Origin: Bimuria novae-zelandiae CBS 107.79
Taxonomy: Eukaryota; Ascomycota; Dothideomycetes; Pleosporales; Didymosphaeriaceae
Length of the DNA stretch: 64,000 nucleotides
Assembly (NCBI GenBank): GCA_010015655.1
Contig: ML976669.1
Span: forward strand, 300,700-364,699
Direction: 5' to 3'
Shown here piece by piece: positions 31,256-58,776 of this stretch. Each line of letters begins with the position of its first letter. Within the stretch, counting starts at the first letter, position 1. The notes beneath the pieces were generated by a model, which saw only the letters and a list, made by a program, of their open reading frames with translations, searched no databases and was not told where the DNA came from. Both the position numbers and the translations under genes were made by a program.

Positions 31256-32343
31256 TCACGCTACCTCTTCTTTGGGTATTCGTTCTCTAGCCGCGAGCTG
31301 CATCTGCGTGTCGAGCAAACTCATCAAAACCGGATCCGAACCATGCTTCAACCATTCAGCATCATGTGCCAGCGCGACGTGGAAACCGAAATCTTTCTCT
31401 AGTGTTCGTATCTTTGAAATAGTGTCTTTGGCGGCATCCAAATCAGCGTGTAGTGATACAGTGCCTTTGCGGTGCGGCAAACAAAACTGCGCGATTTCAT
31501 GAGTACCGTCGAGAATGCCTCTGCTTCTGTTAGAAACACCTATCACCACCCCAAGCTAGACTTGGGAAAGCGTACCTTGAATGGCAGCAGTCGCTTCCCA
31601 AAAGAACCCAGTCGCCACTCTCCAATCGGGCCGCCGCACAAAGATTGCCTGGCAAGTGTCCTGGCGCCTGAATAATCCAGAAACTGCCGTCACCAAAATA
31701 ATCCTGCGCTTTTTTGAAAGGTCCAAATGATTGCCATGGACCGGTCAGCTCTTCACTGCGTTCGGTGGCCCGCTCAGGGTCAAAGAAGCGGCCATCCCAC
31801 TGTGCGTTGGGGTCCGCTAGGTGCCCAGGCGAGCAACCGACTTTCGTGCCAGGTCCGAAGAACGCCGTTGCATTGGGAAATTCTTCTCGAATCGGCCGGC
31901 AGTGATCCCAGTGGGCATGGCTTCCAGTGTCAGTTAGAGCATCGTGCAACCACTGGAGAAGATGCGCACCTGAATATAACCGTCTGGATCTGGTCAGGAG
32001 AGATCCCCTTCTCGCTCAGCTGTTTTTTAATGCTTCTCCTAGGGCCGGAAACGTTGGTGTAGTCCAGCATAAACTTGTGGACCCAGGGTGTGTAAAGAGA
32101 ACGATCCTAAGCTAGTAAGCGTCTCGTAGCTCGGGTGCGTTTTTGGGAGATAACTTCGTTCAGTCCGAGATCCCACAAAATATGTTCGTCCCCGTGAGAG
32201 AGGCAGAAGGCCCAATTGTACATCCGAAACTTCGCATTGTTGACGTCTGCATGCAGCTTATCCGTATCGGCAATGAAACTTCCGCCATCCAATAACGAAA
32301 GGCGCACAAAAGCCGTCGTCTGTGGAAGAGTCATGAATGGCAT
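31256..32343 (-). CDS. Metallo-beta-lactamase-fold lactonase (AttM/AHL-lactonase-like)
   Basis: Exons 32343-32155, 32106-31970, 31920-31576 and 31520-31256; 311 residues. The binuclear metal motif is SHAHWDHCRP with His110, His112, Asp114 and His115 (HxHxDH). Further ligands are expected at APGHLPGN (His) and in SDCCHS after the domain's middle; a late His (LAHDAEW) completes the set. Family members hydrolyse lactone rings, such as acyl-homoserine lactones, or enol-lactones from ring cleavage. The first intron has a weak donor (GTTATC, 50 bp); without it the frame hits a TAG at 32109-32107, so its splicing matters. It ends 120 bp from a transposon that separates it from the catabolic cluster. 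A role in opening a lactone intermediate of that cluster is possible (inference). Confidence 0.85.
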
Positions 32344-32464
32344 CTCTGCTGAGCTATGCAGTCACCAAGGGACAGCAATCAAGCGCTGTTGGGCGGCTCA
32401 ACAGCCCCCTTGTATTAAGCACGGCGGGAATAGACCGTGGTGTCCACATATTACACTATACTTA

Positions 32465-35208
32465 CTGTCGTTTCAGAAATATTGGTAAAAACCGCCAAGA
32501 GATCGCCCCGCATCCCACCCCAACAAAATTTGTATAAGGAATAATGTAACCTCCTATAATGGCACGTAATAAATAAAAAGTAAATTATAAGTACCTAAAA
32601 CTTAAAGCTAGGGCGTTACTTAATTAAGATAAGTATATAGCACCCTTTGCGTAGCCGCCTATAGCTCCCCAGCAGCGACAGTCGCCCACTCGCTCATCGT
32701 CTCGTCTTTCTAAACCTACTTAACGAAAGCGCGCCCAATCACTATTAATATCCGCCACTCTATGGCCTTCTAAGAAGACAAAGAAGGCGAAGAAGACGAA
32801 GGAGAAGCCAGTGCCGCCACCCCTACCCCCGCCAGCCCAACATGTGGAGCCTGTTCTTGTCGAGGAAGAAGATAAAGATATCAAGGAAGAGGTTAAGAAT
32901 AAGAACGCTAGTAGTTCTACGCTATTACTAGCATGCTTTATAATTATTTAAAAAGCTATTACTACTAGTAAAAAGGAGACTCTACCTAATATAAAGTTAA
33001 TTATATTTAACATTAATAATCTATTCCTATTTTAGCTAGCGGCCTAGAGAGATTAAACCCTATTAAATTTATTATAAAAAAAATTACTATTAGCTAGTCT
33101 TAAGCTATTACATTTTATAAAAAGGCGCGGATTACTAACTACTATTTTTAAAAAAATTATATACGTAATAATCTAGACTAAGTTTTAAATTTTATTAAAG
33201 AATAGTATTAGCGCTAGCCTTTAAGGTCACTGTCTTTAAATTTTACGTTATATTTAGTTAAAGAGAAGGAGGTAGAAATTATAGCTTTTATTATTACTCT
33301 AAGCTAGCGTAGTAGCGACAAATTAAAAGGTAGAAGAATAGTTATATAAGCTTAATTTACTAATCTACCTAAAGTCCTTACTGCTAAAGAGGCCTCTAGT
33401 AATAGAATACTAGCAATCGCTAATTAGTAGCCTTATATTAATATTTATTACTATAATAAAGGCAGGACTATCAGTAGCATAAAATATTACTTAACTTTCT
33501 TAATTAAGCTATTTATTACTGTCCTATTAATGCGGAGAATTTTCGGTAGTAAAATAAAAAACTACTTAATAATAAGTTTACTATTAATTAGCCTTCGTAG
33601 AATATTATCGTTAATCTAGTAAACTAGAAGGAGAAAAATTATAAAAGCTATAAAAAGTAAACGCTAGTAAAAAAAGGTACTAGCTTATTAATAATTAATA
33701 ATTTAGTTTTAACTTAGCTTTTAACTTAGCTTAGGTACCTAAACTAGCCTTAATATCCTCCCCCTTACTTAAGTAATCCACCTTATAATTCTAGCCTAAT
33801 TTAATTAGAAATAGATCTTATTAAGCTTCTTAGTTATTTCTTTAACTAGCTAGCTAACTAGCTAAGATTTAGCAGCGAGCAGTAGAGGGCTATACTAAAG
33901 CCTATTTAGGAAAAGCTAATAGAGGATTAATAGACTATAAATATACTTCAGGCAAGGAAGCCTAATAAGAGTATTATAAATAATATATAGAAGGTATATA
34001 GCTTTAAAATTAGGGCGCTTACACGAATACAAAGCAATATTTTTAACTTTAAGTAGTCTAAAGTATAGTAATAAGTCTATTAATTAATAATATAACTTAC
34101 TTTTTTAAAGTTCTACCCTGCATACGTGCCACATGCCTAACTAACTATAAAATATAAAAACGCCTTAAAGCTTTTAAAGTCTTCTATAAGCTAGTAAATT
34201 TTTAATCTAAGTCTTAATATTACTAAACGTCGCCTCTATTAGATTAAAATTTAGTAAGTAGAGTAATAAAAACTTAAGTAAAATATTATACTATTTATAT
34301 AGCTAGCGAAGCCGTTCTAATCTATAAATAAATACGTTATTAAAAATATAAATAAATTATAGCTTTAAGTAGAGTAAATAGTATAGTAATACTTACTCTT
34401 TAATAAAGGCTGCGAAAGCCTTAGCGGTAATAAATTTTTAAATAATAAAATAGCTTAAATATTTATCTACTATTAACGCTAGTAAAACATTTTATTTTTC
34501 TAATCTCTTAATTAGGAGCGCTACTTTATATTCTGTTTTCATAAGTAACTAGCTATACTTTCTATTACTAGTACTTTTATTTATTACTAACTTGTTTAGG
34601 AAAAAAACTAATCTACTATCTAACTCTTTTATATACTAACTTAGGTATTTCAAAGAGGTGTACTTCTTTTTACTATATAAGCTTTTACTATCTTTTGTAA
34701 CTAGCAAGCTCTCTTAAAAATATTATAGATAGTTATAATAAAGACTTAAACGTTAAATACATTATAGAGAAAGTGTTATATCTTATCTAAATACGTAGTT
34801 AGATAGTCTTTAAGAAAGTTAAAAAGCCTCTATATAATTCCTTATTAGCAAAAAAGCTTATTACTATAATATTATTTATTACTAATTTTTAATAGGGTAA
34901 GAGCGCTTTAAGTTAACTAAAAATAATAGTAAGTAGTGCGTATAGCTCCCCTATATATCTAGGTTTAACTATAGCTTATAAATTATCTTCTTAGACACCC
35001 CTACTATTCTTATAATAGCTACTACCTCCTCCCTAGCGCTAGTACGAAGTCTAATTTTATATATAACTTTATAGAGAAGGCGATAACCTATAATATATAT
35101 ATTTTAATTATAGATAGAGGAGGTTACATTATTCCTTATACAAATTTTATTAGGGTGGGATGCGGGGTGATCTCTTGGCGGCTTTTACCGAGATTTCTGA
35201 AACGACAG
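32465..35208. mobile_element. RIP-ruined DNA transposon, 2744 bp, long inverted repeats
   Basis: Inverted repeats of about 92 bp (32465-32556 and 35117-35208) begin CTGTCGTTTCAGAAAT and differ at a few sites, mostly by transitions. TA lies directly outside both ends (32463-32464, 35209-35210), as in Tc1/mariner elements. The interior is extremely AT-rich with stops in all frames. A short GC-richer piece at 32640-32890 hints at an old coding region (Lys/Glu-rich: KKTKKAKKTKEK). No transposase can be read. Superfamily assignment rests only on the TA and is uncertain. Confidence 0.82.
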
Positions 35209-35210
35209 TA

Positions 35211-35873
35211 TTCAGGTAAGTGCTTGTTGATAACATGTACCGTACGAGTAGGTATTCGCTTATTGCCAAAGCAAACCTGCAGACCTCGGCATGTCCTCGC
35301 GACGTACCATTGATTTCCTTTCAAGCGAAAAAACCACAACCTCAGTTGAGGTGTATTTGCTAAGAACGATTCTTATTGAGATTACTCACCCTCTTCGAAG
35401 AGCGCCGTGTATTGAGGGTGGTGTCTTCGGCACGTTTCCCCACATATCCGAGGGGAGAGGCAGACCCGCCATATCGCACTTGTGCCCCACCACCATGTAA
35501 TGTAATCGTAACATAGTGGGGTAATGTAGCCACGTGACTGACGTCAGAGGTGGTATACGTGAAAGATACTACTCAGGTGCACGGACTAGGGACTCAACAA
35601 AAACTCTCCGCCACTCTCTTTCTCTCTGAAAAGACTCCTCACTACACACTCTCTTATCTGCAGATAGCAATACAGTTTGTTTGTCCTCATATGCCTGCCT
35701 GCCTACAGGTAAGCTTACTGCTCCCTACCAGCAATTAATCCTTAAACGACCCGCTTTCTTAGGACTACATCTTTCTACTTGCGCTTTATTTTGGGCCACC
35801 CTTGTAGCGCCATAGCTTTGTTCCAATCGTTGGACAGTCGCGCATTAAGAATTTCCTTATTGCTTCCTTGGAG
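35211..35873. other. Intergenic, between transposon and cluster start
   Basis: Holds the upstream region of the carboxylesterase gene. Short ORFs only. No other element recognised. Confidence 0.45.
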
Positions 35874-37698
35874 ATGACCACCATTTTCAAACACGCAGAT
35901 TTGGGGAAAATCAAGGGAAACATCAAGGATGGCGTCGCTCAGTTCCTGGGGCTCAAGTATGCTTCTTTGCAGAATCGGTTCGCAGCGCCTTCACTAGTGA
36001 CAAACTATGGTTCTGGGACTGTTGACGCCTCCAAATTCGGGTATTTTTCCTTCTCGAATTATCAGTTCCTTGCTCATATCCGACAGTCCTCCTCCAGTCT
36101 CACCCATTGGCGCCATCGACAATGAGTTCGGTTTCATTCAGAAGTCCTTGCCATTGCCACCAGACCTCCCCTATCATTCGGATATCGAAAGCTTGAACTT
36201 GAACATCACTATTCCTATGAACAAGGAGGGTAGCATCGATGTGACCGCAAGTCTCCCTGTGTACGTCTTTGTGCATGGCGGCGGTTTCGCTGTAGGCTCA
36301 AGCTGGTACCCGCATTACGACCCTGCGCCACTCGTGAAGCTTTCAGTCGAGAAGGGACAACCGGCCATTGGTATCACAATCAAGTACGTAAGTCACCCGA
36401 CATGTTTTGTACCCGCTGACCTTTTGCAGCTACCGATTAGGCGTACCAGGGTTTCTGACCTCGAAAGAGTTGCGAAGCGCAGGCTATAAGGCCAACAATG
36501 GCTTCCACGACGTACGGATCGCACTTGAATGGATTCGGAAATTCGTCGGCGGCTTCGGTGGAAATCCAGACGAAATCACCGCTTCCGGTGAAAGTGCCGG
36601 AGCATGTAAATACCCTTTGCGGAAGTCAGTGGCAATTGCTGATAAAGACAGTTGCCGTCATCATGTTACTGACGTCAAAAGAGCCGCTCATGAAGCGGTG
36701 TCTGATTACCGGAGGCGCGGTCCTGTTATTCAAGCCATTGCCCGAGGCGGTAACCGAAGCTACTTATCAGAAAGTCATCGACGCCCTTGGGCTCGCAGAA
36801 AAGACTCCTGAAGAACGTATTAAAGCGTTACTTTCTGTGCCTGTGGACGATCTCTGGCAAAAGATTCCCCCCGGAACGCTCCTTACTCCTTCAATCGACA
36901 ACGAAACCGTGCCTGGCATAGCGACTTTTCCCATCGTCTCGTCTCAATTTGATGACCCAGCATTTCCGATGCCTGGGCGTAAATGGTGTTCAGCAGTGAT
37001 GATAGGCGATTCCAAGCTCGACGTTAGTTTCGAAAATTATGTTCTAGTGCAAATTACTGATATTGAAACAGTGCAGTATCCTCTACTATCTCGGTATGAG
37101 CGAAATGCTCCCAAACATCGCACCGAAGTTCATTGAATCGGTCAAGAAGACCTTAGCAGCACACCCTGAGGTAGCTTTGAATTTGCTATCATTCTACAAC
37201 ATCGCTCCATCAACCGACGACGATGAAGCGCTTCTCTCCATCCTCCGGTTCGGTTCGGAAATCAGCTTCTACGCACCTTCCCTTGCCTTCGCAAAAGGCT
37301 GGCCGAAGACGAAAGAGAACAAGTTTTTCATTTACCACTTCAACGAAGGTATCCCTTGGGAGGGGAAGTTTAAAGGCGAAGCAGGGCACATCCTCGACGT
37401 GGCGTATCTCTTCCAAAACTACAATGAGCATATGAACGAGGAGCAGAAAAAGGTTGCGCGTGCGTACGGTGAAGACTTCATCGAGTTCGTCAACGGAAAC
37501 GATCCATGGCCACCCGTTGAAGGTGAATTGGTAGGCGCGAGAGTCTACGGACCAAGTAGCGAAGGCGTCACGACGAAGTATGTCGCGTCAGGAAACCCCG
37601 CAGAGGTCGGCAGAGAAGACAGAGTGCTCAAGTTGGGTGAGCAGATCGGCTTCGATTTGGTTTTGGATGTATTCCAGAATTTCATGTTTGGTAAATAG
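35874..37698 (+). CDS. Type-B carboxylesterase/lipase
   Basis: Exons 35874-36040, 36087-36383, 36430-36605, 36652-37022 and 37072-37698; 545 residues. Alpha/beta-hydrolase of the carboxylesterase type B family. Oxyanion-hole motif VYVFVHGGGFAVGS; NYRLGVPGFL; nucleophile elbow GESAGA with Ser210 (usual GxSAG). The catalytic acid and His regions fall in the last third (a candidate His is in KFFIYHFNEG, near residue 420). No signal peptide, so it is cytosolic. It would cleave an ester bond, for example freeing an aromatic acid or alcohol. As first gene of the catabolic cluster on this side it may prepare the substrate (inference). All splice phases fit. The ATG at 35874 is the first of the frame. 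Confidence 0.9.
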
Positions 37699-38039
37699 TC
37701 AGGCGTGGTCAAGAGTTATGAAATCAAGCTGTTCGGCACAAATTGAATTCTCTTTTACGCGTTCTGCCGCGGCTTCACGAAGTTTGCGAAGCTCCAAAGT
37801 TGAGTCTGGCGCGGTATTCGGAACATCGCGGTGATTCATTGCCGCTTCCAGTTTTGACACGCTAGCCTGATCGGCTCAAGTGAGGAGTGGAGGCGAAGTG
37901 GGCGCGTTCCCCGCTTGCAACACCTTTCATAGGCGCGCATGTGGGGTGCGGGGACAGGTAAACAAAACGATATGAAATTGGTATCGCAGAAGTATGGATA
38001 ATATTCTTGCAGTTTTCGCATCGCCAAGTGTTTGGTACC
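37699..38039. other. Intergenic, upstream of the SDR gene
   Basis: 341 bp between two same-strand genes; no feature beyond the presumed promoter. Confidence 0.5.
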
Positions 38040-39080
38040 ATGGTTTACGTGCAATTTAACTCCGATCTCCTGAGCACCCTCAACGGGAAGGCTGTGGTAC
38101 TTACAGGAGGAGCAACCGGAATTGGAAGATCAGCCGTGATCCAATTCGTTAGTAGGACAACACCCACCTCTTAACTTTATTCTTTTGAGACACTGTACTA
38201 ATCCATCTTCAGATGCAGGATGCAAGGTCGTATTCGGCGACGTCAACGATGTGGCTGCTCGCGAGCTAGAATCCTCGCTCGGCGAATCAGTGCGCTTCCA
38301 ACACTGCGACACTTCGTCGTACCAGGCTCAGCTTGGCTTGTTTGCTTTAGCGGAGAGCACTTATGGCCGGGTCGACATTGTAGTAGCTAACGCAGGAGTG
38401 GCGAACCATAAAGACATCTTCGACCCAAGCTCAGACATCCTTGTCGAGCCTAGTATGATGGAGGTCGACATCAATCTCAAGGGTTCTATATTCACGGCGA
38501 GAATCGGTATGCATTACTTAAGAAAAACTGGAGGTGGCGATCTTGTACTCGTTAGCTCCATCGCTGGTTTCAAGGAGTGTGGAGGCCTTGCGCCGTACAC
38601 GGCGAGTAAACATGGTGTGTTGGGTCTCATGAGAGGGCTGCATATCGTTGCTATTCCGGAGAATATCAGGATCAACGTGATATGTCCCTGGATGACTAGT
38701 AAGTCCTCCAATTGCTACTATTACAAAGCTGTTCTAATGGGCGCATAGAGACGAGACTTGTCAAAGGTATTGAAGCCGGCTGGAGGGAACTTGGTCTTCC
38801 AGAAAATGAACCCGAAGATGTTGCAAGAAGCATCGTGCTCTGCGCTTCTGCTAATCGAAGTAAAGACGGCAAGACTCACCCAGGAGCAAGGATGCCGTTT
38901 GCGGGAAAGATCCTATGGATTGCGGGTGGTGAATCCTACGAGATAGAAGACGCGATACAAGAGCTTGAGCCGAAATGGCTTGGTGAAGAGAACAGCAGAG
39001 TGCTTGCTAAAGGTCAGGAGTTTCTTGCAAGTCAAGGCACAAGCTGGGATGCAGATAAGCTCGGACAAAAGACGCCATGA
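38040..39080 (+). CDS. Short-chain dehydrogenase/reductase
   Basis: Exons 38040-38151, 38213-38698 and 38749-39080; 309 residues. Classical SDR: cofactor motif TGGATGIG (TGxxxGxG), VFGDVND with an Asp after the second strand (suggests NAD rather than NADP), VANAGVA, catalytic Ser153, Tyr166 and Lys170 (SSIAGF... YTASK). It resembles the 15-hydroxyprostaglandin dehydrogenase-like fungal group. Oxidises an alcohol to a ketone or the reverse. Its 3' end meets that of the NmrA-like gene after only 57 bp. The first donor is GTAGGA; the alternative GTTAGT four bases earlier breaks the frame. Confidence 0.9.
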
Positions 39081-39137
39081 ATGGGTGCACAGATACAATA
39101 TACCAAACTTCTTTATCAACGCCTGATGCATATGCAC

Positions 39138-40137
39138 TTACTTGCTGCCCCCTTCCACAGCATCCAAAGTCAAATAAGCAGGCGCCGGCTTGTCTTCAGT
39201 AATATCACCCCACGCGCTCCAATGCTTCCCAACCAACTTCTCGTTCTCCACTTCATCCGCAATCGCGATCGCCATATCCGCCACGCTAATCCCCGTCAAC
39301 CTTCCCTCGAAGATATTATCACCCCGCTGTTCACCAACCAGTACCATATCATCAACGCTAACTTCGTACTTCCCCGTACACACACCAGGTCTATACAAAG
39401 CTGATGGCGACACAAACGACCACTTGAACGACGTGTTGCCGTCGAAAAACATATACGCCGTCCGTCCCGCCTTGATAAAGTCCGTCGCGCGGTCCTTAGC
39501 CTTGATGCTTGCTTCGTACTCCGCAATGGTCTTTTGCTGCTCAGTCGTGGCACGACCTTTGCGCTCTCCGAATCGCGCATCGCGGTAGGCGCGGAGGGCG
39601 GTGCCCATTATACCCAGGCGCTCTTCCATGTATACAATGTGTGCTTCTGAAGTCGCAATGGCGCGCCTGTATGCCATAAAGAAGTCTGGATGGTCGACGC
39701 AGCTCTCTGGTGTACCGGGCACGTGGAGAGACCCTGCGCCGCCAACGAAGAGGAAGTATTTCACGTCTGACTGTTTGACTGCTAGGATGATTTTTCGAAC
39801 CGTTTCGAGGAAAGGCACTATTCTCGTTAGACAACATCTTTGTATGATGGAATTTTTGGCACTTACTGTACAGTAGTGCATCTGCACCTGCTGTATGCGG
39901 TCCGTACTCTGAGACAAGTACATCGATTCCTGAGAAGTGCTTTGCGAGTTCGGAAATGGACGCTGAATCGATGTCGACAGACCGTGGGAAGTAGCGCCCG
40001 TGCGAACCGAGCTTTTCGGGATGACGAGAGAGGCCGATTACGGTGTGGCCGCGGTTTAAAAGCTCGACGCAGAGATAGGAGCCTCCAAATCCTGCCGGGC
40101 CGATTACCCCTACCTTTAGAGGTGAAGCTGGTGGCAT
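39138..40137 (-). CDS. NmrA/isoflavone-reductase-like NAD(P)-binding reductase
   Basis: Exons 40137-39867 and 39817-39138; 316 residues. An atypical-SDR Rossmann start (KVGVIGPAGFGGSYLCVELL, then VIGLSRHPEKLG, Arg suggesting NADPH) is followed by IDVLVSEYGPHTAGADALLY. The second exon has KYFLFVGGAGSL and a C-terminal substrate region (KWSFVSPSALYRPGVCTG). NmrA-like and isoflavone-reductase-like enzymes reduce double bonds or act as redox sensors. Cytosolic, with no targeting signal. It shares a 454-bp divergent promoter with the 3-hydroxyisobutyrate-dehydrogenase-like gene, which argues for joint expression. Confidence 0.87.
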
Positions 40138-40591
40138 GGTTCTGCTCTTTGTACTGGTGCCGAGTCAGCCCAGGTCGTAAATACTATCATAGTTACTGTG
40201 AAATACAAGCATGCCTACCGTCCCGAGGTCGGATTCATAGAATAATAGTTATCTACAAAGAAGGACGACGATGCGGTATGCTTTCACAAGGGCGTGTACC
40301 GGGAGTGGTATTTCTCACTTCCGAGTAACTTTCAAAATTTAATAGCACGAAATTTGTGACCTTGCGGTGCTCCAAAGTGTTACATAGCACTTGTCCGTTT
40401 AGAGTTGGCGTTTGGATGAATATTGGGGAGCATATGGAGAATGAGGGGAACAATGTGGGGCGAAGCGCGAAGGCGCGAAGGCCAGATTATGCAGGTACTA
40501 TCTACTTTGCACGAAGTACTACCTCGCCTACTGTAAACAATACTCTTCGACTGTTGCTTGGAATCATTCTCGCAGTTTTCAAAGCTAGAGA
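40138..40591. promoter_or_regulatory. Divergent promoter, NmrA-like / 3-HIBDH-like genes
   Basis: 454 bp between two diverging start codons inside the catabolic cluster. No specific binding site is asserted. Confidence 0.55.
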
Positions 40592-41701
40592 ATGGCGGAC
40601 AATTATGCGTTCATCGGCAGGTTCATTCTACACCATCCGATATTCTGACACTAACTCTCCGCAGGCCTCGGAGCCATGGGCTACGCCATGGCCTCAAACA
40701 TCAGAAGGAAAATGGATGCATCGGCAACTTTGTACATCAATGATATCAACGCTTCCGTTTGTACTCGCTTCAAAGACGAATATAGCTCTTTTGGGCGCAT
40801 AAAGATCGTTTCCACCGCACGCGAGGCATCTGAGAATGCGAAAGTAGTCATATCAATTGTACCTGGAGCACAAGATGTCAAAAAGGTCTACCTAGATGAG
40901 AAAGACGGTGTAATTTCTGCCAAGAAAGACGAAGAGCGGGTACTGTGCGAATGCAGTACGATCGACGTGAAGAGTACACGAGAAGTGGGCGAAAAGCTCA
41001 AGGCAGAGGGAATGGGGACCTATGTGGATACTCCCGTCTCAGTAAGCTCCTCTTATCTTGTTCATAAGTCTCACTCACTGATCTTCCACCAGGGCGGCGT
41101 CCCGGCAGCGGAACAGGGCACTCTTGCTATGCTCATCGGCCACCCCAAGCTCTCTACCTCAAACCCCATACACACACGCATCGACGCCACACTCTCTATG
41201 ATGGGCTCCCCCGAGAAGTTCTTCTACCTCAACTCCCTCGGCGCTGGCCTCACTGCCAAGATCTCAAACAACTATCTCTCGGGCACGATCCTCCTCGCGA
41301 CTGCAGAAGCCCTTGCCATCGGCGTCGCGCAAGGCCTCGATCCGAAGCAACTGTACTCTGTGATCCGCGCTTCAACCGGCCAGTCTTGGATGTGCGACCA
41401 TGTCATGCCAATACCGAATGTAACCGACATCTGGGTGCCGAGCAACAGCGGGTACAAGCCGGGCTTTAAGACGCAGATGATGCTTAAAGACCTAGGACTC
41501 GGTATTGAGGGCGGGAAGCAGGTTGGAATTAACCCTTCGATGGCGGAGGCAGCGATGGAGGTCTGGGAGAGCGCGAGTAAGGACGATAGGTGCATCGATA
41601 GGGACGGGAGTAGCATATATTTGCACATCGGAGGGAAGTTGCCGGAGGGATATGAAGACAAGGGCAAAAAGAAGGATGACGGATCGTGGGAGTTTGCGTA
41701 G
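40592..41701 (+). CDS. 3-hydroxyisobutyrate dehydrogenase-like beta-hydroxyacid dehydrogenase
   Basis: Exons 40592-40616, 40665-41041 and 41093-41701; 336 residues. N-terminal NAD-binding motif FIGLGAMGYAMASNI is created by splicing a 25-bp first exon to exon 2 through a GC-AG intron (donor GCAGGT; branch-like CACTAAC). CSTIDVKST and DTPVSGGVPAAEQGTLAML are the substrate-binding signatures of the family. GAGLTAKISNNYLSG carries the catalytic Lys, and the C-terminal helical domain has FKTQMMLKDLGL. It oxidises a beta-hydroxyacid to its semialdehyde, or the reverse. Three-exon structure is fully in phase. In the cluster it could act on a hydroxy-diacid side intermediate. Confidence 0.9.
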
Positions 41702-41822
41702 TTTCTGGTAGAGTGAAACTCGGGAAAAGGATATCGAGAGTTCTACACAAGTTTACCTGGCGCCGAATGCTACGCTCAAAGCCCAATGCTAATACTGGTA
41801 ATAACAAATTCGTATTACGAAA

Positions 41823-47099: not shown

Positions 47100-47449
47100 C
47101 CGGTGGAGTGCCGTAGGTCTAACGCGCATCAGCGTGTCGATATCGATCGGGATGTCTTTTGAGCGATGGTTGTAGCAGTGAAAGCATAATTTGTTGCATA
47201 GTTGATTCCTCATGCACAACACGAAAATGACGCGACCCACAAAACTACACGTGGGCGCTAACCTCATGGGTCACGCTAAAGTGCCGACCCGAGCGCAAAT
47301 GAACCCCACACTCCTCCGCCGCACTCCTCCACCGCCCATGGTCCCACGTCTTGATACACTCTGCCTTTAGTGCTAGCGTTCTCGTTCTTTCCTTGTCATG
47401 CTTTCCATTTTTCGTTTTGTCTGTCACTCAGCGTATCCTAAGTGACATC
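47100..47449. other. Intergenic, upstream of the lyase gene
   Basis: 350 bp. The open frame upstream of the lyase ATG has no ATG and is not taken as coding. Confidence 0.5.
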
Positions 47450-48874: not shown

Positions 48875-49291
48875 TTAGCTCGCCATTTCGCCCGGCAATG
48901 CTTACGAAGTCGATATGATGATATATATTAAAAGTTGCAAGAATAGCTTCAATCACTTAGTAGCTCTCATAATGCACAGCGTTCGCATGAGTACCGCCAG
49001 GACAAATGAAAACGCAATCACGTCCATTCATCAACGACCCGCCAATGTCCCGGTTTCAACCTAGTCATGCTGCTCGTTCTGGTACACTCTTTGCTTCACC
49101 GAACAAGTCAATATGTCGTAACCCCGCGGATGCTAGGAAGAGAGCCAGGCCGTTAGCCCCACATCACGCGGATTCCACACCAGTCAGCAACGGCAGATCT
49201 AGCGCTACGCCCCAGATGCTTGGTTCAATATAAGTCAAGCTACTGCGGCGAACACAGGACTTTCCCATCAACATTTTCACACTTCTTCAAC
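48875..49291. other. Intergenic, upstream of the dioxygenase gene
   Basis: 417 bp without supported genes. Confidence 0.5.
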
Positions 49292-51086
49292 ATGGAGTTC
49301 AAAGAACGTCAGCTTGTCACCGACCCCCAGAAGGCCTTTCACTTCACCGATCTACAGAGGCTGAAGCCTACGCGAGCAAACGACCCTTATGAGTACCAAG
49401 CAGGATGGGGCAACCGCCATCAGTCGGAGGTCATCCCCGGAACCTTGCCTGTAGCGCAGAATAACCCACAAGAGGTTCGCTTTGGTCTTTACACTGAAGG
49501 CATCACATATTCAGCTTTTACTGCTCCACGGAATTCAAACTTCAGCACATACATGTACCGCTGTAGACCAGCGGCTGCCCATAGTATGTCGAATGCGAGC
49601 TTCCACGTCTTCCTGCGCTAATGAAGTATAGAGGGTTATGTTCCTATTGAGACGAAATCGAACATCCAAAACTGCTTTCTATCTATCAACCCCAAGGTTG
49701 AGGCTCTACCAGAACAGGCGGAATGGGCGCCGTATCCGCTTCCCAAAGACGAAGACAAGATCGACTTTGTGAATGGACTACATACCTTGGCTGGAAGCGG
49801 TGACCCTAATATCAGGGAAGGCATCGCCCTCTACGTGTATATGATTAACTCCAGCATGGAGCGACGGGCGTTTTGCAACACCGATGGCGACTTCCTCATC
49901 TGCGCGCAGCTCGGCAGTCTCGATATCGTGACTGAAATGGGCAAGATCTTCCTTCAACCCGGCGAGATTTGTGTTATTCAGAGAGGCATCCGATTCTGTC
50001 TGAACTTAGCCCCAGATACCAAAGTTGCTCGTGGCTACATCACCGAGGTGTGGGGTTCCATGTGGGAGCTCCCGGATCTTGGTCCGCTAGGTGGACATGG
50101 GTTGGCGAACCCACGCGACTTCTTGTACCCTGTTGCTGCGATCGACGAGGAACTCCACGTTGATTGGCAGATTGTGAACAAGACCAACGGGCAGCTCGTT
50201 GCCATTCAGCAGGACCACAGCCCATTCGATCTTGTCGCGTGGCACGGCAACGTCGTCCCTTACAAGTATGATCTCACCAAGTTCTCTTCGCAAAACAGCA
50301 CCTCGATTGACCACACCGATCCGTCAATCTTCTGTGTGCTCACTGCGAAGTCTCGCGACCCGGTCACACCACTAGCGGACTTCCTTTGGTTTGGACCGCG
50401 ATGGGATGTGGCGACGAACACTTTCAGGTTGCCTTACTTCCATCGTAACTCTGCCTCGGAATTTCTCGCCTGTTTATACGGCCAGGGTCTTGGAAGAAGC
50501 GATGAGTTTCTTCCTGGTGGTGGCAGCTTTGAGGGATGCCATACGCCTCACGGTGGTTTCCATGAAGGCTACCAGCATGGCATGAGGATTCACGAGAGCG
50601 TTCCAGAAAAGACCCTGACAGGTATGACGGATATCATGTCTTCCCGGATGCCTTTGCTGACATATACCAGACCAACTCACCATCATGGTTGAGTCGAGCC
50701 GCTTGTTCCTCTGGACCGAATACGCCCGCACTGGTTGCGGCACAATGCACGCTCATGGTACTGATTACAAGGTCTGGGATGCACTACCCGTAAGTCTCTT
50801 CTCCACATCAAAGACCAACTTCTGAATTCCACCACAGGATCGGTTTTCCGCCAACAACAAAGCCAAAGAGTTGCTCGCTCGCATCAAGGAAGACAAGATC
50901 GCGGAGAAGAAGCGGTTGGCACCTTACTATATCGGCGGATTCGCTCATGGTGCTAATGCTAGCGACACCGAAGGCGTACATTCCAAGGAACTGGAGCCAT
51001 ATCTCAAGGATAGCAAAGCCAACGGTATCAGGCACGACTCAATGAGCAGCGGGCATGCATTGGAAGGCGCTGTGGAGGTAGCTTAA
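49292..51086 (+). CDS. Homogentisate 1,2-dioxygenase-like ring-cleavage enzyme
   Basis: Exons 49292-49583, 49632-50621, 50671-50789 and 50838-51086; 549 residues. Cupin-type HGD fold: YEYQAGWGNRHQSEVIPGTL near the start and ARGYITEVWG in the middle. The iron ligands of human HGD (His335, Glu341, His371) have counterparts His368 and Glu374 (FHRNSASEF) and His404 (TPHGG) at identical spacing, and the active-site base His292 corresponds to His325 (IDHTDP). HGD opens the ring of homogentisate to maleylacetoacetate; relatives cleave other hydroquinone-type acids. The protein is about 100 residues longer than usual, mostly in a charged C-terminal tail (KELLARIKEDKIAEKKRLAP). No maleylacetoacetate isomerase or fumarylacetoacetase lies nearby, so the substrate may not be homogentisate. 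Confidence 0.92.
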
Positions 51087-51326
51087 TTCTCATTTCCTGA
51101 GTCTTTTTCTCGAGTCAAGCGTGCGTCGCGGAACAATCAACTTCATATGTACGAACTACATGTTCTATATACGTCCCATTGCATAAACGAGTCTGCGCTT
51201 AACCGCTTCAGGGTAGTTTAGCGACCCCACATGCAGGATGTGGGGCCAAAAGTGCGAACAGCGAGAGACTCTTTGATATACATAACGCTCCGGACGCCGA
51301 CAATGATGGATACATAGAACGAAATC

Positions 51327-52958
51327 ATGCTTTCAAGGTCGTGTAAGAGACTTGCTGTATCCAGTAGGGGCTGGACCTTGGCGCGCGGACATCCCGCCTC
51401 CAATCGCTGGATATGGAGGCGTGGGAATGCGACAGCGAGCTCAGTGGACAAGAAAACCATCGAGAAGCTACCATTGGCTGGCATACGGGTGCTAGACATG
51501 ACTAGGGTGCTCGCCGGGGTATGTCCATTCCCGCTTGGGAAGGTAAACTGTATAGTGACACACGACAGCCTTATTGTACGCAGATACTCGCAGACCTTGG
51601 GTATGATCTAAGTTTCAAGTTGTCTTATGTTGTGCTGATGTTGAAATAGGGCAGAAGTTATTAAGATCGAGCACCCAACGCGCGGAGACGACACACGATC
51701 ATGGGGACCACCTGATGCACCTTACACCGACGGTGTTGAGCGCCAATTCCCCGGTGAAAGCGCGTATTATCTCTCTGTAAGCTCTAGTGCATCTCACTTG
51801 CAAACAACTGCACCAACTCTGACACTGCGACAGGTAAATCGCAACAAGAAGTCTCTCGGCTTATCCTTCAACAATCCCTCCGGGATATCGATTCTCCACT
51901 CCCTCGTTCAAAAATGTGACGTCCTTGTAGAAAACTATCTACCTGGCTCTCTCGCCAAATATAAGCTCGACTACGCTACCGTCTCACAAATTAATCCCTC
52001 GCTGGTCTACGCTTCTGTGACCGGATACGGGCAAACAGGACCTTATAGCAACCGCGCAGGTTACGATGTCATGGTCGAAGCCGAGATGGGACTCATGCAC
52101 ATCACCGGGGAGCGAGACGGACCACCCGTGAAGGTCGGAGTGGCAGTCACTGATATATCGACGGGTATGTACACGGCGATCGGTGTGTTAGCGGCGTTGT
52201 ATGCAAGGAAAGAGACTGGTCTTGGGCAGTGGATCGATGCGAGCTTGAGCGATTGCCAGGTCGCGGGGCTGGCAAACATCGCGAGTAGTGCGCTGATTAG
52301 TGGGAAGAAGGATAGCGGGAGATGGGGGACTGCTCATGGTATGTCAAACTTTGTATTTCTAGGACTGCATGGTTACGATGCTAATTTGTATACAGCATCA
52401 GTGGTACCGTATCGCGCATACAAGACCAAGGACACCAACATCGCTGTGGGTGGATGCAATGACAAGCTCTACGGTATTCTCTGCGACAAGATTGGCAAGC
52501 CGGAGTGGAAGACAGATTCGCGCTTCGTCACCAATGCGCTACGTGTCAAGAATAGAGACACACTTGATCGCATCATCGAAGATGTGCTCAAGACGAAGAC
52601 GACGAAAGAGTGGTTAGATATTTTTGAGGGAAGCGGTATGCCCTACGGTGCTGTCAACGACATTCAAGGGACCATCAACCATGAGCACGGTATGTTCATT
52701 TTCCACCTTCGAAGCTATTGAAGAATGGCTAACGTTGCGATTACAGTTCTCGCTAGAAACATGATCGAGGAGGTAGACCACCCTGGCGTTGGACCGATCA
52801 AACTCGTCAATCATCCAGTCAAGTACTCAAGAGCAGAGCCGAAGATCAGGACGCCGCCTCCGATGTTGGGCGAACATACAAATGAGGTGTTGAAGGAGCT
52901 TCTCGACTTCACCGAAGATGATATCCAAGATCTCAAGGTCAAGAAGACAATTGCTTAG
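51327..52958 (+). CDS. Family III CoA-transferase (CaiB/BaiF type)
   Basis: Exons 51327-51518, 51569-51600 (32 bp), 51650-51776, 51834-52338, 52396-52689 and 52747-52958; 453 residues. Family III CoA-transferases move CoA between acids through an aspartyl-CoA intermediate; the catalytic Asp is in AGYDVMVEAEMGLM. Other signatures: GIRVLDMTRVLAGPYCTQIL (made by splicing through the tiny exon 2), EVIKIEHPTRGDDTRSWGPP, NRNKKSLGL, DVLVENYLPGSL and TGYGQTGPY. The N-terminus (MLSRSCKRLAVSSRGWTLAR) is a mitochondrial presequence. It is related to the glutarate/succinate and itaconate CoA-transferases of mitochondria. Two CoA-transferases in one cluster suggest two separate acids are activated, or one replaces the other. 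Confidence 0.93.
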
Positions 52959-53537
52959 CCCGAGGATAGGAATGGTTGCATAGCATATAACCGCCAAAAT
53001 ATTCCCAGGCGTCTGTAGCATATCGTATCGCATACAATAGATCCCGCTTCAAACATTCACTTGTTCGTCCATGACATCACGCAATGAGCAAAGAATAGGG
53101 GCCCTCCACCAATGATTTTGTAATCATCTTCAAAACACTCAGCCTCATTTTCAAGCCTCCACTTCTTCGCGACATCAGCAGCATCGTGACCCTTCACCGA
53201 TTATTTTGTAATCATCGTGGCCTCCCCACATCGTTGTGGTGCCCACCCCTACGCGTCTGCCAAACTCGCTAGCCCCGCACCCGCCCCACATCCTCCCCAA
53301 AGCAGCACCCCTGCAGCACCACCACTATCAGACATACCGGGAGAAAGGGCATACAATATGGATGCGCATGCATGTAGAATACCTATCGCGGCGATGACAA
53401 GCGCAGGGTGGGGTAGGTTGTAACGGAAGTGGTGCCCTGCGCGAGGCGTGGGCTGGCAAGCTCTGACGCCGATTTTTTGAGGACTACCTATATGGACCTT
53501 GGAAGTTGCTTTGCAACATTATTTTTCCATAGGTGAT
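52959..53537. other. Intergenic, upstream of the carrier gene
   Basis: About 580 bp. A near-repeat (accaatgattttgtaatcatc at about 53109 and accgattattttgtaatcatc at about 53196) occurs twice and could be a regulatory site, each with a palindromic core gattttgtaatc-like half. Confidence 0.45.
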
Positions 53538-54639
53538 ATGGCGTCGAAGGTATCGCAGAACGTTGACGCTGTGAGGTCGGAGAAAGCTGCTGTGCTGCCT
53601 TTTAGGTATCAGTTTGCTGCTGGGGCGGTTGCAGGGACCTCGGAGGTAAGAAAGAGTGCCGCGCGAGTGGTGTAGGCGGTGCTGATAATTTTAGATCCTG
53701 GTGATGTGAGAGAAAAGTCGCTACTTGAAGCTTGTGAAGTGCTAAGAATGTAGAAAGGTACCCTCTTGATGTGGTCAAGACGCGGATTCAATTGCAGCAT
53801 GGCGTAGCAAAAGATGGCCAAGGGTATACTGGCGTGCTGGACTGCTTCAGGAAGATCATAAAGAACGAGGGCGCGACGAGACTGTACCGTGGGATCACAG
53901 CGCCGATATTGATGGAGGTCCCTAAGAGGTTCGTTGTCATCCATTGAACTGTTCGACCAGGGAAGTGGGCTGATCCAATAACAGAGCTATCAAGTTCTCT
54001 GCCAACGACTCATTTGGTCCTTTCTACCAGCGCTTGTTCCAAGTCCCAGCTCTGACGCAGCCCCTCGCCGTGCTCACGGGTGCAAGTGCCGGCGCGGTTG
54101 AAAGCCTCGTTGTAGTTCCCTTCGAGCTACTCAAGATTCGTCTGCAGGACAAGACCTCTGCATCGCGATACAACGGTCTCTTCGACTGTCTCACTAAAGT
54201 CGTGAGACAAGAAGGACCTCTCGCGCTCTACAATGGCTTCGAAGCTACACTCTGGCGTCACATTGTGTGGAACGCTGGGTACTTTGGATGTATCTTTCAA
54301 GTGAGGGCGCAGCTACCCGAGCCATCGAAGTCGGCGAACCCAAAAGCGCAGAAGACGGTCAATGAATTGGTGGCAGGCTTTGTGGGCGGTATTGTGGGCA
54401 CTACGTTTAATACGCCACTCGATGTGGTCAAGAGTCGGATACAAAGCGTTGCCAAAGTGCAGGGCGTGAGAGGAAAGTATCAATGGGCATGGTCGAGCTT
54501 AGGGATAGTGGCAAGAGAAGAAGGTTTGAGGGCATTGTATAAGGGATATGTAGCAAAAATATTGAGGTTTGGGCCTGGCGGGGGTGTGCTGCTGGTTGTA
54601 TATTCAGCAGTTATAGATATGTTTGGGAAGGTGGTGTAA
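53538..54639 (+). CDS. Mitochondrial oxodicarboxylate carrier-like protein
   Basis: Exons 53538-53645, 53695-53705 (11 bp), 53758-53928 and 53985-54639; 314 residues. Three tandem carrier repeats with Px[DE]xx[RK] motifs: YPLDVVKTRIQ (rebuilt across the 11-bp exon), VPFELLKIRLQ and TPLDVVKSRIQ. Other signs are FQFAAG-type repeat starts (RYQFAAGAVAGTSE) and LMEVPKRAIKFSANDSF, a hallmark of the Odc1/Odc2 group that exchanges 2-oxoadipate and 2-oxoglutarate over the inner mitochondrial membrane. 3-Oxoadipate is a close isomer of 2-oxoadipate, so in this cluster the carrier may bring 3-oxoadipate to the mitochondrial CoA-transferase and thiolase (inference). Confidence 0.92.
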
Positions 54640-55723
54640 AGGTTTGTAGGACTCGAATATGAAGCCCCAGTAACCTCTCTAGTCCTAACGACGACGAAGG
54701 CGTAGCGCAATGGCCGCCCGAAACCATCCCTTGTGAGGATCGAAGATGGACATGCCTACTGTAGAAGCACAATCCCTGTGGGCTTATCAATATGCGTTTC
54801 AGGTCGCACGGCGTCGCTTCTCGGATCTTGGAACTGTATGTAACGGTTTGTTGAGAACCGGGTAAAGCAGCACAGTGAGGTGGCCAGCCCGTATATGCAC
54901 CTATGAGGCTATTGGCCAAAGCACCGAGATATGGCCTATAAACCAACGTACATCGAATAGATAATCACTATACCACATATCTATGCGAAGCTTGGCCGGC
55001 AGGCGATGTGACTCAGATCCGAATTTAGAGGGCGCGTGAACCATAGGTTTAACTCTCGTTCCTTAATCAAAGCGATCATCCGTCAATGATACGAGTTAGA
55101 TCGTCTATTCGTCCCTTCCTGGATCGATTCTCGAAGGATTCGAGAACTGCGTGACCAGAAGAGACAGGCCAGGGTTGATGCCCCACTACTGCAAGCCTTA
55201 CCAGGGTCCCCACATGCACGGGAGGGAGTCCGAAGATATGGAATCAATGAACGCCTACCTACCCATCAGCTGCGTGACGATGGTTAGCTGCTCGTGGGCT
55301 TGCCCAAAAGATCAAGGCAAACGATGAGGCTGTTGTTTGCGGCACGTCGAAGGCGACTGTCACCGTCACAATAGTGTGCGTGCGACAATCGTTTCACGTC
55401 ATGCAGAGAACGTAGCTCCGCCTCTGGTGCCTACTCCGTTAGAGCTGACAGGCGCTTCAAATGAAGCAGTGAGACTGCAGATGATATGCGCCAGCGAGTA
55501 GATGAAGGGCGAATTTGGAGGGAAGGCGCATCCCGGTCTTATATTGCTCCTAGGCGAGTCATGGGTAGCTCTTCCCCCGCAACTCAGGATGCCAACCGAG
55601 TCGTCGCTCCAGACTTGTCGACCGGCACTTCGCTCATCTATTCACTCTTCAAGACCCTTTCCGATTATACTGGACCGCTGAGGATATCGAAGCTCTTTAC
55701 GCGGACTGCCCGACACTACCCTT
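54640..55723. other. Intergenic, upstream of the regulator gene
   Basis: 1.08 kb. A 95-codon ORF at 55486-55773 overlaps the regulator's first exon in another frame and is not supported. No repeat found. Confidence 0.5.
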
Positions 55724-58700
55724 ATGGCCTTGAAGCAATGCAGCCTGTGCGACCGCAAGTTCACGAAGCTTGAGCATGTGAAGCGGCACGAACGATCGCG
55801 TAGGCGCCAATTCCTCTCGATGCGATGCCTTTTCACGACTAATTTAGGGCATAGATACCAGAGAGCGTCCCTATGAATGTCCGACGTGCAAGAAGCATTT
55901 TTCGCGCAGGTAAGACCTAAAACACCGGTTCCGCGGATTGCCACCAACAACGAATAGCGACGTATTATTTCGCCATTGCAAAGGCCATGCACAGAATGCT
56001 CTAAACAGGCTGAGCAATAGCCAGAAAAATCAGCAGCAGCAGCAGCAGCAACAGCAACAACAGCAACAACAGCAACAGCAACAGGGTGCGCAGAATACGA
56101 CCAACGACAAGCAGCAGAGTGAGGCCGGTCCTACATCGGAGCGAACACCACAACTTTCCCATGACCCAAGTTTATCACCTCTTTCAAGACGGAAAAGTTC
56201 ACAACAAGTCCCGCCGTCTGGAGACGGGGTGCAAAACCCTCAACAATCGCCGAATTTGCAATTGCAGCGATCTTCCATACAACAGCAGTCGTCCCCCGGC
56301 GAAAGCCGGTTAGAAGCGCTTCTCAACGCGGCGCAGCATCTCGGAACACCCGGCGACGTACCTTGGAGGTCACCCTCTCCAATAGATTTACCCACGGGCA
56401 ATGAGCGTTTCCTGACGCGTCAGCCGGACAATATGCCTCCACCTATTGATCCGGCAATTGACATGCTTTCCTTTTCGCCTCAGGACCACGTTTCCAGTCT
56501 TGACCAGTGGGCTTTCGAGCTAGTGCAGAGCAACCATCCACTCCCGAACCGGACACCAGCCGATGCTCTGCAAACTTGGTTGTTCCCTCTTGAAAATGAC
56601 ATTCTGGGTTCCCATCACATGGCCATTGACAGTCACTTCGACACCGGCATTTTCCGGAATGGTGGAGATAACCATGCCAGTCCATCCGGTAGCAATGTTT
56701 CAATCGCGAGCAGGATACCCGAAGAGCGCTTTTCGCGAGTGGAAAGCTGTTGGCCCTCAAAATCTCGGACGCCATCCCGCTTGATGCCGACCTTGTGGCA
56801 GTGTCTGGTTTCGGCAGATTGCTCGAATATCCTTTCAGAAATTCCTTCTGGTGTTATTGAGACCCCGATCAGTGAGCGCGAAAGAAGAAATTCACGATGG
56901 GGCCTCGACGAAGAATGCAGGGACCTGTTACAAGGCGCACTCAATAACGCACCGCAAGCGAACAGTCTCCGTTCTGAGTCATTTGGCGACACCGCATCAT
57001 CCAACGGTGAGGCTGGAGCGAGCCCTGGCAACGATGGTGTGCGCTTTCCACCTGCAGAGATTCTAGATATTGCTTTGGAGATGTATTTGTATTACTTCCA
57101 CCCAACATTGCCTATCATCCACATTCCTACTTTCTCGGCGAAGAACGCTTCGAGGTCGTTGCTACTTTCCATGTGCCTTATCGGGCTCAGCATCCTCGGC
57201 ACAGCTGGAGCCGCGAGATTCGTATCGCGTACATATCCGGTAAGTCTGGCCAACTTCTCCATACCAGAAGCGGGAGCTAATTAAAGTATCAGGTGGTCTT
57301 GCAAATGGTCTCTGCGGAACTGCAATCGTTATCGACAAGTAACCACACTCCACAAAAACAGATGCGCATCCTTGCCACAGGACTGCTAGCTCTGAACTTA
57401 GCTTCTATAACTGGCGTAAGCAGGAACGTGGCAAAAGGTGAAACATTTGCTAAGCAGGAGCAGCGCAAGAGTCGAATAGCTCATGCTGGGAATCTCTACA
57501 ACGACTTAATTATGGTAGGTGAAGTGCCATTCGTGCGAGCGAGCATTGTTGACAATTAAAGGCGGCACAAAAACACGGGCTGTTCTCTGCGAATGAGAGC
57601 GCACCACCAGATTCGTTCTTGGAAGATATATTGGATATTGACGCTCGATGGAAGGCGTGGTGTCGGGTAGAATGCGCGAAACGGTAAGCAAGAACTCGTC
57701 TTGGTTTAGGCCTTGCTAAAAGTGTCAGGATCGTTTTCGGTCTGCTGGAGGCAGACTGCTGGTACGCGTCGTACCTTTCGGCTTCGCCGCTGATACGACC
57801 CGAATCAGTGCAGATACTACCACCCTCGGAGTATAACCTGTACCATGCGAATTCTCCCACCAAGTGGTTCAACTTAGTACAGCGCGGGGCTCGGATACAT
57901 TCGAATCGCATCACACCCTCCTACCTACCGACACCAGGGCTGAAGCTGGACTCTAGCACCCTTCGGAGTCTGCTTACGCTGTTCCTCCTCCGAGTATACG
58001 AAGCCAACGACCGGTTGGCCAATATTAGTGGACCCCAGAAGCACCTCGAGCCGTGGCGTGTATATTCGGAGGATCCTAGAAGTCGCGAGCTGATACCGCT
58101 CCTGGTGAATTTCTCATCGTCGTCCATTGACGCATTACGAACGGCAGACCTCAACTCCGCAGTGCTCTGGCACTCAACGTGCATGATGCTCGGAGCGAAC
58201 ATGCGCTATTTCGAGCTTGCCGCTGGACGGGCGGGGTCTGGACCCGCAATAGCTGCTCTGGAAGATATCTCGGTATGGTCACAGACACCATCCGCACGAA
58301 GAGCAGTGTTGCACGCCGCGCACGTCTTCAAACTCCTCTTCGACCGCAAAGTCTCCGATATCGTCAACCCACACAGCTGCGTTGCGCTCTTCCAAGCCGC
58401 GCTCGTCCTCGGGTTGTACATCTTCACAGTTCCTCCCACCCCCTGCGGCATCAATGATAACTGCGTCGAGCTGCTTGATCTTATCGACTGGACCCACGTA
58501 GGCCAAGTCGGCCTTATTGACTCGCCGCACTCCCCTGGGACATCCTTAGGCTTCGGCGACGCGTCTGTGTTGAACTTCATCCGCAGCGGCGGTCCCTTCA
58601 GCATAACGGGCATCGCGCTCGAAGGCGGGTACCTCGCCGCCCGAAGAACACTTCTGCACTGCGCAGACCTGATGGACGGCATGGGGAGGTGGAAGAGTCG

Positions 58701-58776
58701 AACCTTTTCGCAGATTTTACACATCATGAGCGACGATCTTACGGAAACGGATGCAATGGATAGCGAGGATGCATGA
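55724..58776 (+). CDS. C2H2 zinc-finger transcription factor with fungal-specific TF domain
   Basis: Exons 55724-55799, 55855-55909, 55958-57239, 57293-57415, 57458-57514, 57562-57683 and 57729-58776; about 920 residues. Two N-terminal C2H2 fingers span three exons: CSLCDRKFTKLEHVKRHERSH and CPTCKKHFSRSDVLFRHCKGH. A Gln run (about 18 Gln, 56026-56083) follows, then a Ser/Pro/Gln-rich linker and, from about residue 410, the fungal_trans regulatory domain (PPAEILDIALEMYLYYFHPT, LPIIHIPTFSAKNASRSLLL, then LLEADCWYASYLSASPL). Fingers plus this domain define nuclear regulators of carbon or secondary metabolism. As the only regulator at the cluster edge it is the likely activator (inference). The acceptor of exon 5 could be 57455 instead of 57458. 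A stop upstream in frame fixes the ATG. Confidence 0.88.
56026..56083 (+). repeat. CAG/CAA microsatellite coding poly-Gln
   Basis: A run of CAG and CAA codons in the regulator gene, likely to vary in length between strains. Confidence 0.9.

Follow-up and report, generated by a model that had tools for sequence, protein, structure and literature searches.

It has been reported that in Aspergillus niger the cleavage of methoxyhydroquinone by MhdA, a dioxygenase of the homogentisate dioxygenase (HGD) family, leaves a methyl ester, and that reduction, by an enzyme inferred by the authors, together with the esterase OmeA leads to 3-oxoadipate (PMC8336404, in the passages used here). In these passages the maleylacetate reductase candidate has a distant gene number, and beside mhdA only omeA and an MFS gene are named. 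The Aspergillus oryzae homologues of MhdA and OmeA have unlinked gene numbers in the part of PMC12335040 drawn upon. The 3-oxoadipate pathway of Candida parapsilosis has a mitochondrial SCOT and a mitochondrial thiolase, with an oxodicarboxylate carrier suggested by its authors as the means of import; its ring opener is hydroxyquinol 1,2-dioxygenase, and the passages of PMC5144973 used here mention no lyase, esterase or succinate-hydroxymethylglutarate CoA-transferase (SUGCT) type enzyme. Here we describe a block of twelve genes at positions 35874-58776 of a 64,000-nucleotide stretch of the Bimuria novae-zelandiae CBS 107.79 genome (contig ML976669.1, positions 300,700 to 364,699), referred to below as the window. 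This soil mould is classed in the family Didymosphaeriaceae of the Pleosporales (Dothideomycetes). Like the A. niger route the block has an HGD-family dioxygenase, a maleylacetate reductase candidate and a carboxylesterase, and like the C. parapsilosis pathway it has a SCOT, a thiolase and a carrier, but its dioxygenase probably differs from MhdA in lineage, as judged by identity and mass.

By analogy with the A. niger enzymes it appears quite possible, although short of probable, that this cluster degrades 2,6-dimethoxyhydroquinone (DMHQ), the hydroquinone that syringyl lignin units are predicted to yield, with acetyl-CoA, succinyl-CoA and fumarate as end products. An initial annotation of the window had held that HGD and 3-oxoadipate enzyme sets are not normally joined; this view has to be given up, because the two were joined in A. 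niger in 2021, in the form of MhdA, OmeA and the maleylacetate reductase candidate (PMC8336404). Its assignment of the lower part to a 3-oxoadipate-type route is judged to be right.

Two signature genes set the cluster apart, a dioxygenase and a lyase. The dioxygenase gene (49292-51086, 549 aa; cluster genes are on the + strand unless stated otherwise) was placed by means of two trees, a 48-row tree including 42 chosen rows of the best 120 matches and a quick 109-row tree including 106 of the 120 (those of at least 390 aa). In the 48-row tree the HmgA proteins (human, P. putida and a copy on contig C63 of the B. novae-zelandiae genome) were split from all others with a support of 100/100. On the non-HmgA side PDB entry 9pz4 branched first, then lineage A, containing a copy on contig C17 (99/96), and then lineages B and C jointly (100/99); lineage C, which holds the window dioxygenase, had a support of 100/99. 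The quick tree gave identical A, B and C groups, and both trees carry long-branch warnings. His335, Glu341 and His371 (human HGD numbering), which we take to be the iron ligands, are kept in the window enzyme and in all lineage-C rows that have a residue at the position concerned (77 rows). Three other positions are altered in lineage C: Tyr350 is replaced by Gly in 72 of 76 rows, Lys353 by Arg in 73 and His365 by Glu in 69, and the window enzyme has G, R and E. In HmgA these residues presumably face the substrate and contact its acid side chain. Lineage A has retained Tyr350 in 23/23 rows, and 9pz4, titled homogentisate 1,2-dioxygenase and the closest structure to the window enzyme, has Gly aligned to position 350. 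Since Tyr350 has become Gly, more space beside the ring is plausible in lineage C, and since all three HmgA residues are replaced, the hydroquinone-type acid named as substrate in the initial annotation is unlikely.

The tagged A. niger MhdA has been described as a protein of 55.5 kDa, and its identity to A. nidulans HmgA is given as 50.8% (PMC8336404, passages used here). The median length and the median identity to the C63 HmgA are 491 and 45.3% in lineage A (22 rows), and 520 and 40.0% in lineage C (73 rows). The lineage-A Aspergillus row P0106 has a mass of 54.4 kDa and 45.7% identity to the HmgA of the window genome, the corresponding values of the A. niger lineage-C row P0031 being 60.6 kDa and 38.9%. 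Because its reported mass and HmgA identity fit lineage A better than lineage C, MhdA probably belongs to lineage A, a placement made on these two values. The window dioxygenase represents a third lineage, neither HmgA nor the lineage that MhdA fits best, for which no published function was found in the open-access literature searched. The lineage-A gene of the same genome, likely of the MhdA type, is at C17:766289-766835 with an N-run near its 5' end, and tblastn of eleven window proteins in the surrounding 18.5 kb found only that HGD.

The other signature gene (47450-48874, 474 aa, one exon) codes for a fumarase-superfamily lyase with a mitochondrial-type N-terminus. In the initial annotation it was called PcaB-like, a name that does not survive closer inspection. 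The protein scored below the cut-offs of three NCBIfam PcaB models (PRK09053, 454 vs 595; TIGR02426, 347 vs 356; PRK05975, 255 vs 371), and among solved structures it matched best to 3c8t 'fumarate lyase' (551 bits), followed by Tad1 (401) and CMLE/PcaB (344 and 312). Its motifs, named here C1, C2 and C3 in what we take to be the usage for the fumarase/aspartase superfamily, are GATTQD, GRTHLQ and, in the SS loop, GASSTMPQKRNP. The His of C2 was found in 117 of 120 homologue rows, the motif being missing in the remaining 3, as well as in 6/6 bacterial relatives read and in 3c8t. Unlike these, the four PcaBs of pcaHG operons (L089-L092) have L, R, R and R at this position; there is L in a Streptomyces gene annotated pcaB and N in Tad1. 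The titles of the E. coli adenylosuccinate lyase H171A and H171N structures fit a catalytic His in the superfamily, H171 presumably occupying the same position as the C2 His. It is well supported that the lyase is not PcaB, and the gene is better read as encoding a putative fumarate-forming lyase.

The sequence preceding the lyase core contained at least three Arg/Lys and at most one Asp/Glu in 46 of the 48 rows scored (out of 120; 39 rows under 440 aa and 33 without a detectable core start were left out), a crude count that the window reductase and thiolase pass too. The nearest other match to the lyase in the genome had 31% identity by piece, so there is no close paralogue. The structure model of the lyase had a mean pLDDT of 74.4, with values below 50 at residues 288-313, where the C3 loop sits. 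In a structure search 3c8t, CMLE, Tad1 and CreD were the best, and because these families are within 4 Z units of each other, the fold alone cannot pick the substrate. The 3c8t protein, from Mesorhizobium sp. BNC1, is bacterial and, in the alignment, without the fungal N-terminal extension; bacterial relatives lack the cluster neighbourhood. Such relatives, 55-60% identical, were collected from Bradyrhizobium, Variovorax, Pseudomonas and others (80 loci, L009-L088). When eleven window proteins were compared with these loci by tblastn, matches other than the lyase were to the short-chain dehydrogenase (SDR) in 8/80 and to the 3-hydroxyisobutyrate dehydrogenase (3-HIBDH)-like protein in 1/80. 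Bacterial context was dropped as a guide to the substrate; three neighbourhoods were unlike one another by eye.

Linkage in other fungi was determined from the named rows of the best 120 matches each to the dioxygenase, the lyase and the esterase, absences carrying no weight. The dioxygenase-lyase pair was met with repeatedly. Dioxygenase and lyase were on equal-sized contigs in 11 of the 13 species common to both lists, some of these contigs being megabases long and therefore weaker evidence than locus tags; in the other two, A. niger and Paecilomyces variotii, the two matches came from different strains. Where both matches had tags of a single genome, as in five species (Penicillium alfredii, Oculimacula yallundae, Scytalidium lignicola, Fusarium nematophilum and F. 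lateritium, which we take to represent Eurotio-, Leotio- and Sordariomycetes), the locus tags were always consecutive. In Didymosphaeria variabile the dioxygenase and the CaiB-type CoA-transferase are annotated as a single 927-aa protein, with 93% and 92% identity to the window genes, eight gene numbers from the esterase as in the window (seven in Plenodomus lingam), and the Thermoascus thermophilus lyase is annotated as a fusion with a thiolase piece. Equal-sized contigs were also found for lyase and esterase in Delitschia, Amniculicola and Clohesyomyces, and for dioxygenase and esterase in Sporormia; in Paraphoma the pairing of dioxygenase/lyase with the esterase involved contigs of differing size. 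A. niger holds both signature genes (rows P0031 and P0151), and no esterase of A. niger CBS147371 was among the 120 matches listed. Linkage of cluster genes in other filamentous fungi is well supported.

The remaining cluster members are largely enzymes of common families. The upstream part consists of a PF00135 carboxylesterase (35874-37698, 545 aa, 5 exons), predicted to be an OmeA-like methyl-ester hydrolase, the SDR (38040-39080, 309 aa), an NmrA-like NAD(P)-binding protein of family PF13460 (39138-40137, - strand, 316 aa), for which quinone reductase is a guess, and the 3-HIBDH-like protein (40592-41701, 336 aa), which was under the NCBIfam cut-off. These are followed by the SCOT-type 3-oxoacid CoA-transferase (41823-43523, - strand, 510 aa), the maleylacetate reductase (MAR) type Fe-dehydrogenase (44120-45516, - strand, 384 aa) and a thiolase of the acetyl-CoA C-acyltransferase subfamily (45779-47099, 408 aa). 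Downstream of the two signature genes are the CaiB/SUGCT-type class III CoA-transferase (51327-52958, 453 aa), a mitochondrial carrier (PF00153, 53538-54639, 314 aa), which the initial annotation labelled as being of the oxodicarboxylate type, and a C2H2 regulator with a Fungal_trans domain (55724-58776, 934 aa, six exons). The MAR-type enzyme had its best PDB match in 9ph0 'MAR1' (300 bits, the next being 108). The CaiB protein was closest among solved structures to SUGCT (9br6, 399 bits), and scored 353.9 against the cut-off of 750 of the NCBIfam model SucGlutTfsCaiB, which was built for bacteria and archaea. The SCOT and CaiB models have basic, mitochondrial-type N-termini with no acids in the first 30 residues. 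In the regulator Fungal_trans was above the Pfam cut-off; two zinc fingers were recognized by eye, their matches being below cut-off.

All twelve hand-spliced models were open, with introns of 45-65 bp bounded by GT-AG, or GC-AG in two cases, and the esterase model matched a known B. novae-zelandiae protein (row P0241) at 100% identity along 545 aa. Pfam agreed with the expected families for 10 of the 12 cluster proteins (the number scanned), the SCOT name came from NCBIfam and the HGD name from NCBIfam and PDB. On the basis of the models and these three sources the earlier family calls hold for the esterase, SDR, NmrA-like protein, 3-HIBDH-like protein, SCOT, Fe-dehydrogenase, thiolase, dioxygenase, CaiB protein, carrier and regulator. 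Taking into account the open models, the common promoter motif (see below) and the dioxygenase-lyase linkage in other species, the reading of the block as one cluster is confirmed and well supported.

The genome (77.4 Mb, 191 contigs, with the cluster on contig C14) was searched for paralogues of the SCOT, MAR, thiolase, CaiB, carrier and esterase genes and of the two signature genes. SCOT relatives were found at C26 (65%) and C12 (57/48%), a MAR relative at C1 (47%), thiolase relatives at C61 (55%) and other places, a further SUGCT-like gene, 71% and 58% identical by piece, at C5 and a carrier relative at C29 (63%); the esterase had no relative above 48% by piece. With HmgA at C63 and C53, the cluster genes are not the only housekeeping copies, a possibility that the initial annotation had raised. 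Since relatives lie elsewhere in the genome, the cluster can be regarded as two signature genes surrounded by additional copies of common enzymes.

An unbiased count of all 6-mers and 7-mers was made in the ten gaps that bear promoters (4,986 bp in the interval 35211-55723). The top-ranked words were CCCCAC and CCCCACA, with 17 sites vs 2.04 expected and 11 sites vs 0.55 expected, the maxima in 200 shuffles intended to preserve dinucleotides being 6 and 3, respectively. CCCCAC was present in 10/10 of these gaps, its sites spanning 35438-55213, and was absent from the two convergent-gene gaps (57 and 122 bp). In the whole window there were 17 CCCCACA sites vs 6.1 expected, a number reached in 0/100 shuffles; 3 of the 17 were upstream of 31000 and 2 within cluster genes. 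The motif search also detected an inverted pair, CCCCACAT-5 nt-ATGTGGGG, at 51225-51245. That the cluster-wide promoter motif is real is well supported, and the C2H2 protein is likely a regulator acting via CCCCACA. The consensus of the general regulator CreA, SYGGRG, includes GTGGGG, the complement of CCCCAC. General CreA sites were rejected as the source of the motif, because other SYGGRG variants had no comparable enrichment in the gaps relative to window positions 1-31000 (per kb, CTGGGG 0.60 vs 0.61, GCGGGG 1.20 vs 0.48, GTGGAG 1.60 vs 0.97 and GTGGGG 3.41 vs 0.45); binding of CreA to GTGGGG is possible.

We infer the substrates, reactions, compartments and regulation of the DMHQ route as follows. 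In the cytosol the lineage-C dioxygenase would cleave DMHQ between C1-OH and C2-OMe to 2-methoxy-maleylacetate methyl ester, the maleylacetate-reductase-type enzyme would reduce the double bond of the ester, and the esterase would take off the first methanol to give methoxy-3-oxoadipate. After entry into the mitochondrion through the carrier, SCOT would form the CoA ester and thiolase would produce acetyl-CoA and methoxysuccinyl-CoA. The SUGCT-type transferase would then shift CoA to succinate, and from the methoxysuccinate set free the lyase would eliminate the second methanol to form fumarate; in a variant, the lyase would act ahead of the CoA steps. By analogy with A. niger MhdA/OmeA, dioxygenase, reductase, esterase, SCOT and thiolase would be the set required for a methoxylated hydroquinone, and the SUGCT-type transferase and the C2-His lyase fit a second methoxy group. 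The substrate, and its cleavage before any demethylation, would be shared with a basidiomycete enzyme (Kato 2024, as cited in PMC12915361). A 2026 database of fungal aromatic metabolism has, in the part used here, eight ring-opening intermediates, DMHQ not among them (PMC13094099). Somewhat more tentatively than the substrate itself, we suggest that the cluster may constitute a ninth fungal central aromatic pathway, in which DMHQ is cleaved undemethylated and methanol is lost twice, through a cytosolic esterase and a mitochondrial methoxysuccinate methanol-lyase. Searches of the open-access literature brought up neither this cluster nor a methoxysuccinate lyase, and no pathway paper on methoxysuccinate methanol-lyase activity.

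Several observations weigh against this proposal. It employs 8 of the 11 non-regulatory genes, leaving the SDR, NmrA-like and 3-HIBDH-like proteins unexplained, and no syringate hydroxylase was recognized within the cluster. The N-terminus of the reductase, with 3 basic and 1 acidic among 22 residues, passes the presequence test applied to the lyase, though the enzyme is placed in the cytosol. A strong esterase orthologue (at least 58%) was found in one species set only, presumably the Pleosporales, the values outside it being 51% or less; the best esterase matches of Mollisia (42%) and Lineolata (40%) were on a contig other than that of the dioxygenase, and the 45% match of Phlyctema was on the same 6.7-Mb contig. 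In flanks of up to 10 kb of the 80 bacterial lyase loci tblastn found no HGD, MAR, SCOT, thiolase, CaiB, esterase, NmrA-like or carrier gene. The AF2 model of the dioxygenase (row P0002; mean pLDDT 75.5, block means 45-79 over residues 351-430) was of too low a quality around the active site for a pocket test and was left unused. The authors of the database mentioned above (FAMeDB) expect, in the part consulted, a 1,2,3,5-tetrahydroxybenzene pathway for syringyl units (PMC13094099), and a DUF3500 gene, of the family proposed for the cleavage of this compound, is present at C65:432188-433245, so that another route for syringyl units is possible in this genome. Finally, the Kato enzyme reportedly cleaves methoxyhydroquinone as well as dimethoxyhydroquinone (cited in PMC12915361), and therefore lineage C is not necessarily specific for DMHQ.

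The cluster could instead encode a complete methoxyhydroquinone (guaiacyl/vanillate) route with an MhdA-like dioxygenase and an OmeA-like esterase, the lyase and the CaiB protein being peripheral. The dioxygenase, reductase, esterase, SCOT and thiolase would be enough for it, and the MhdA chemistry has been demonstrated (PMC8336404, passages used here). However, this genome has the separate lineage-A dioxygenase on C17, a lineage that fits MhdA better by mass and identity, and the lyase would be left without a function, though it adjoins the dioxygenase by tag in five other species and has no close paralogue. We regard this route as rather unlikely. Another substituted hydroquinone, such as a carboxylated or alkylated one of lignin or polyketide origin, or hydroxyquinol, with the lyase acting on a different substituted succinate or on a tricarboxylate, is also unlikely: such a compound would have to give the esterase an ester and the lyase a heteroatom leaving group to act on, and the dimethoxy compound would be the simplest with both. 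If, finally, the dioxygenase were an HmgA paralogue for tyrosine or phenylacetate catabolism among unrelated neighbours, its HGD family membership, its iron ligands and its score with the NCBIfam hmgA model (462.4 bits) would be accounted for, but that score is below the cut-off of 510.75, and Lys353, His365 and Tyr350 are replaced. Moreover, the two HmgA near-copy loci of the genome, C53:440464-440907 (at least four in-frame stops) and C63:432715-433179 (open in the part read), each have an FAA_hydrolase gene within a few kb, and none of the 9 FAA_hydrolase matches genome-wide was on C14. This agrees with the earlier remark that the fumarylacetoacetase partner is missing (maleylacetoacetate isomerase was not searched for). 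Together with the common promoter motif and the conserved linkage, these data make an HmgA paralogue very improbable.

On its upstream side the cluster is taken to start at 35874 and not at 31256, where the initial annotation had begun with a lactonase, because a transposon-like element intervenes and the lactonase pieces match nothing. A Pfam scan of two lactonase pieces (31256-32340) gave no match, and membership of the lactonase in the cluster could not be maintained; this lactonase-like piece, which contains stops, is a possible gene remnant adjoining the element. The element itself (32463-35210), outside the cluster and between lactonase and esterase, is AT-rich (the stretch has 34-36% GC) and 2.7 kb long, with 96-nt terminal inverted repeats (93%), and looks like a decayed DNA transposon. 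Just past the end of the region covered by the initial annotation there is a cytochrome P450 gene (59399-61092, + strand), which has CCCCACAT 153 bp upstream (59239-59246, - strand) and may belong to the regulon. As a member of this regulon the P450 would be a candidate for an O-demethylase or a hydroxylase acting upstream.

Syringyl units are a main part of hardwood lignin. According to the part used here of a 2025 review (PMC12388069), how Aspergilli break down syringyl units is unknown, and unpublished data mentioned there have A. niger degrading both syringic and sinapic acid, the route again being unknown. With two signature genes that have A. niger relatives, the syringyl question becomes testable. 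If the lyase step is true, it would be a new kind of aromatic methoxy removal, taking place after ring opening, as methanol and with no demethylase. The DMHQ route, if true, would be the syringyl route so far missing in moulds, and its mitochondrial methanol-releasing step would be new.

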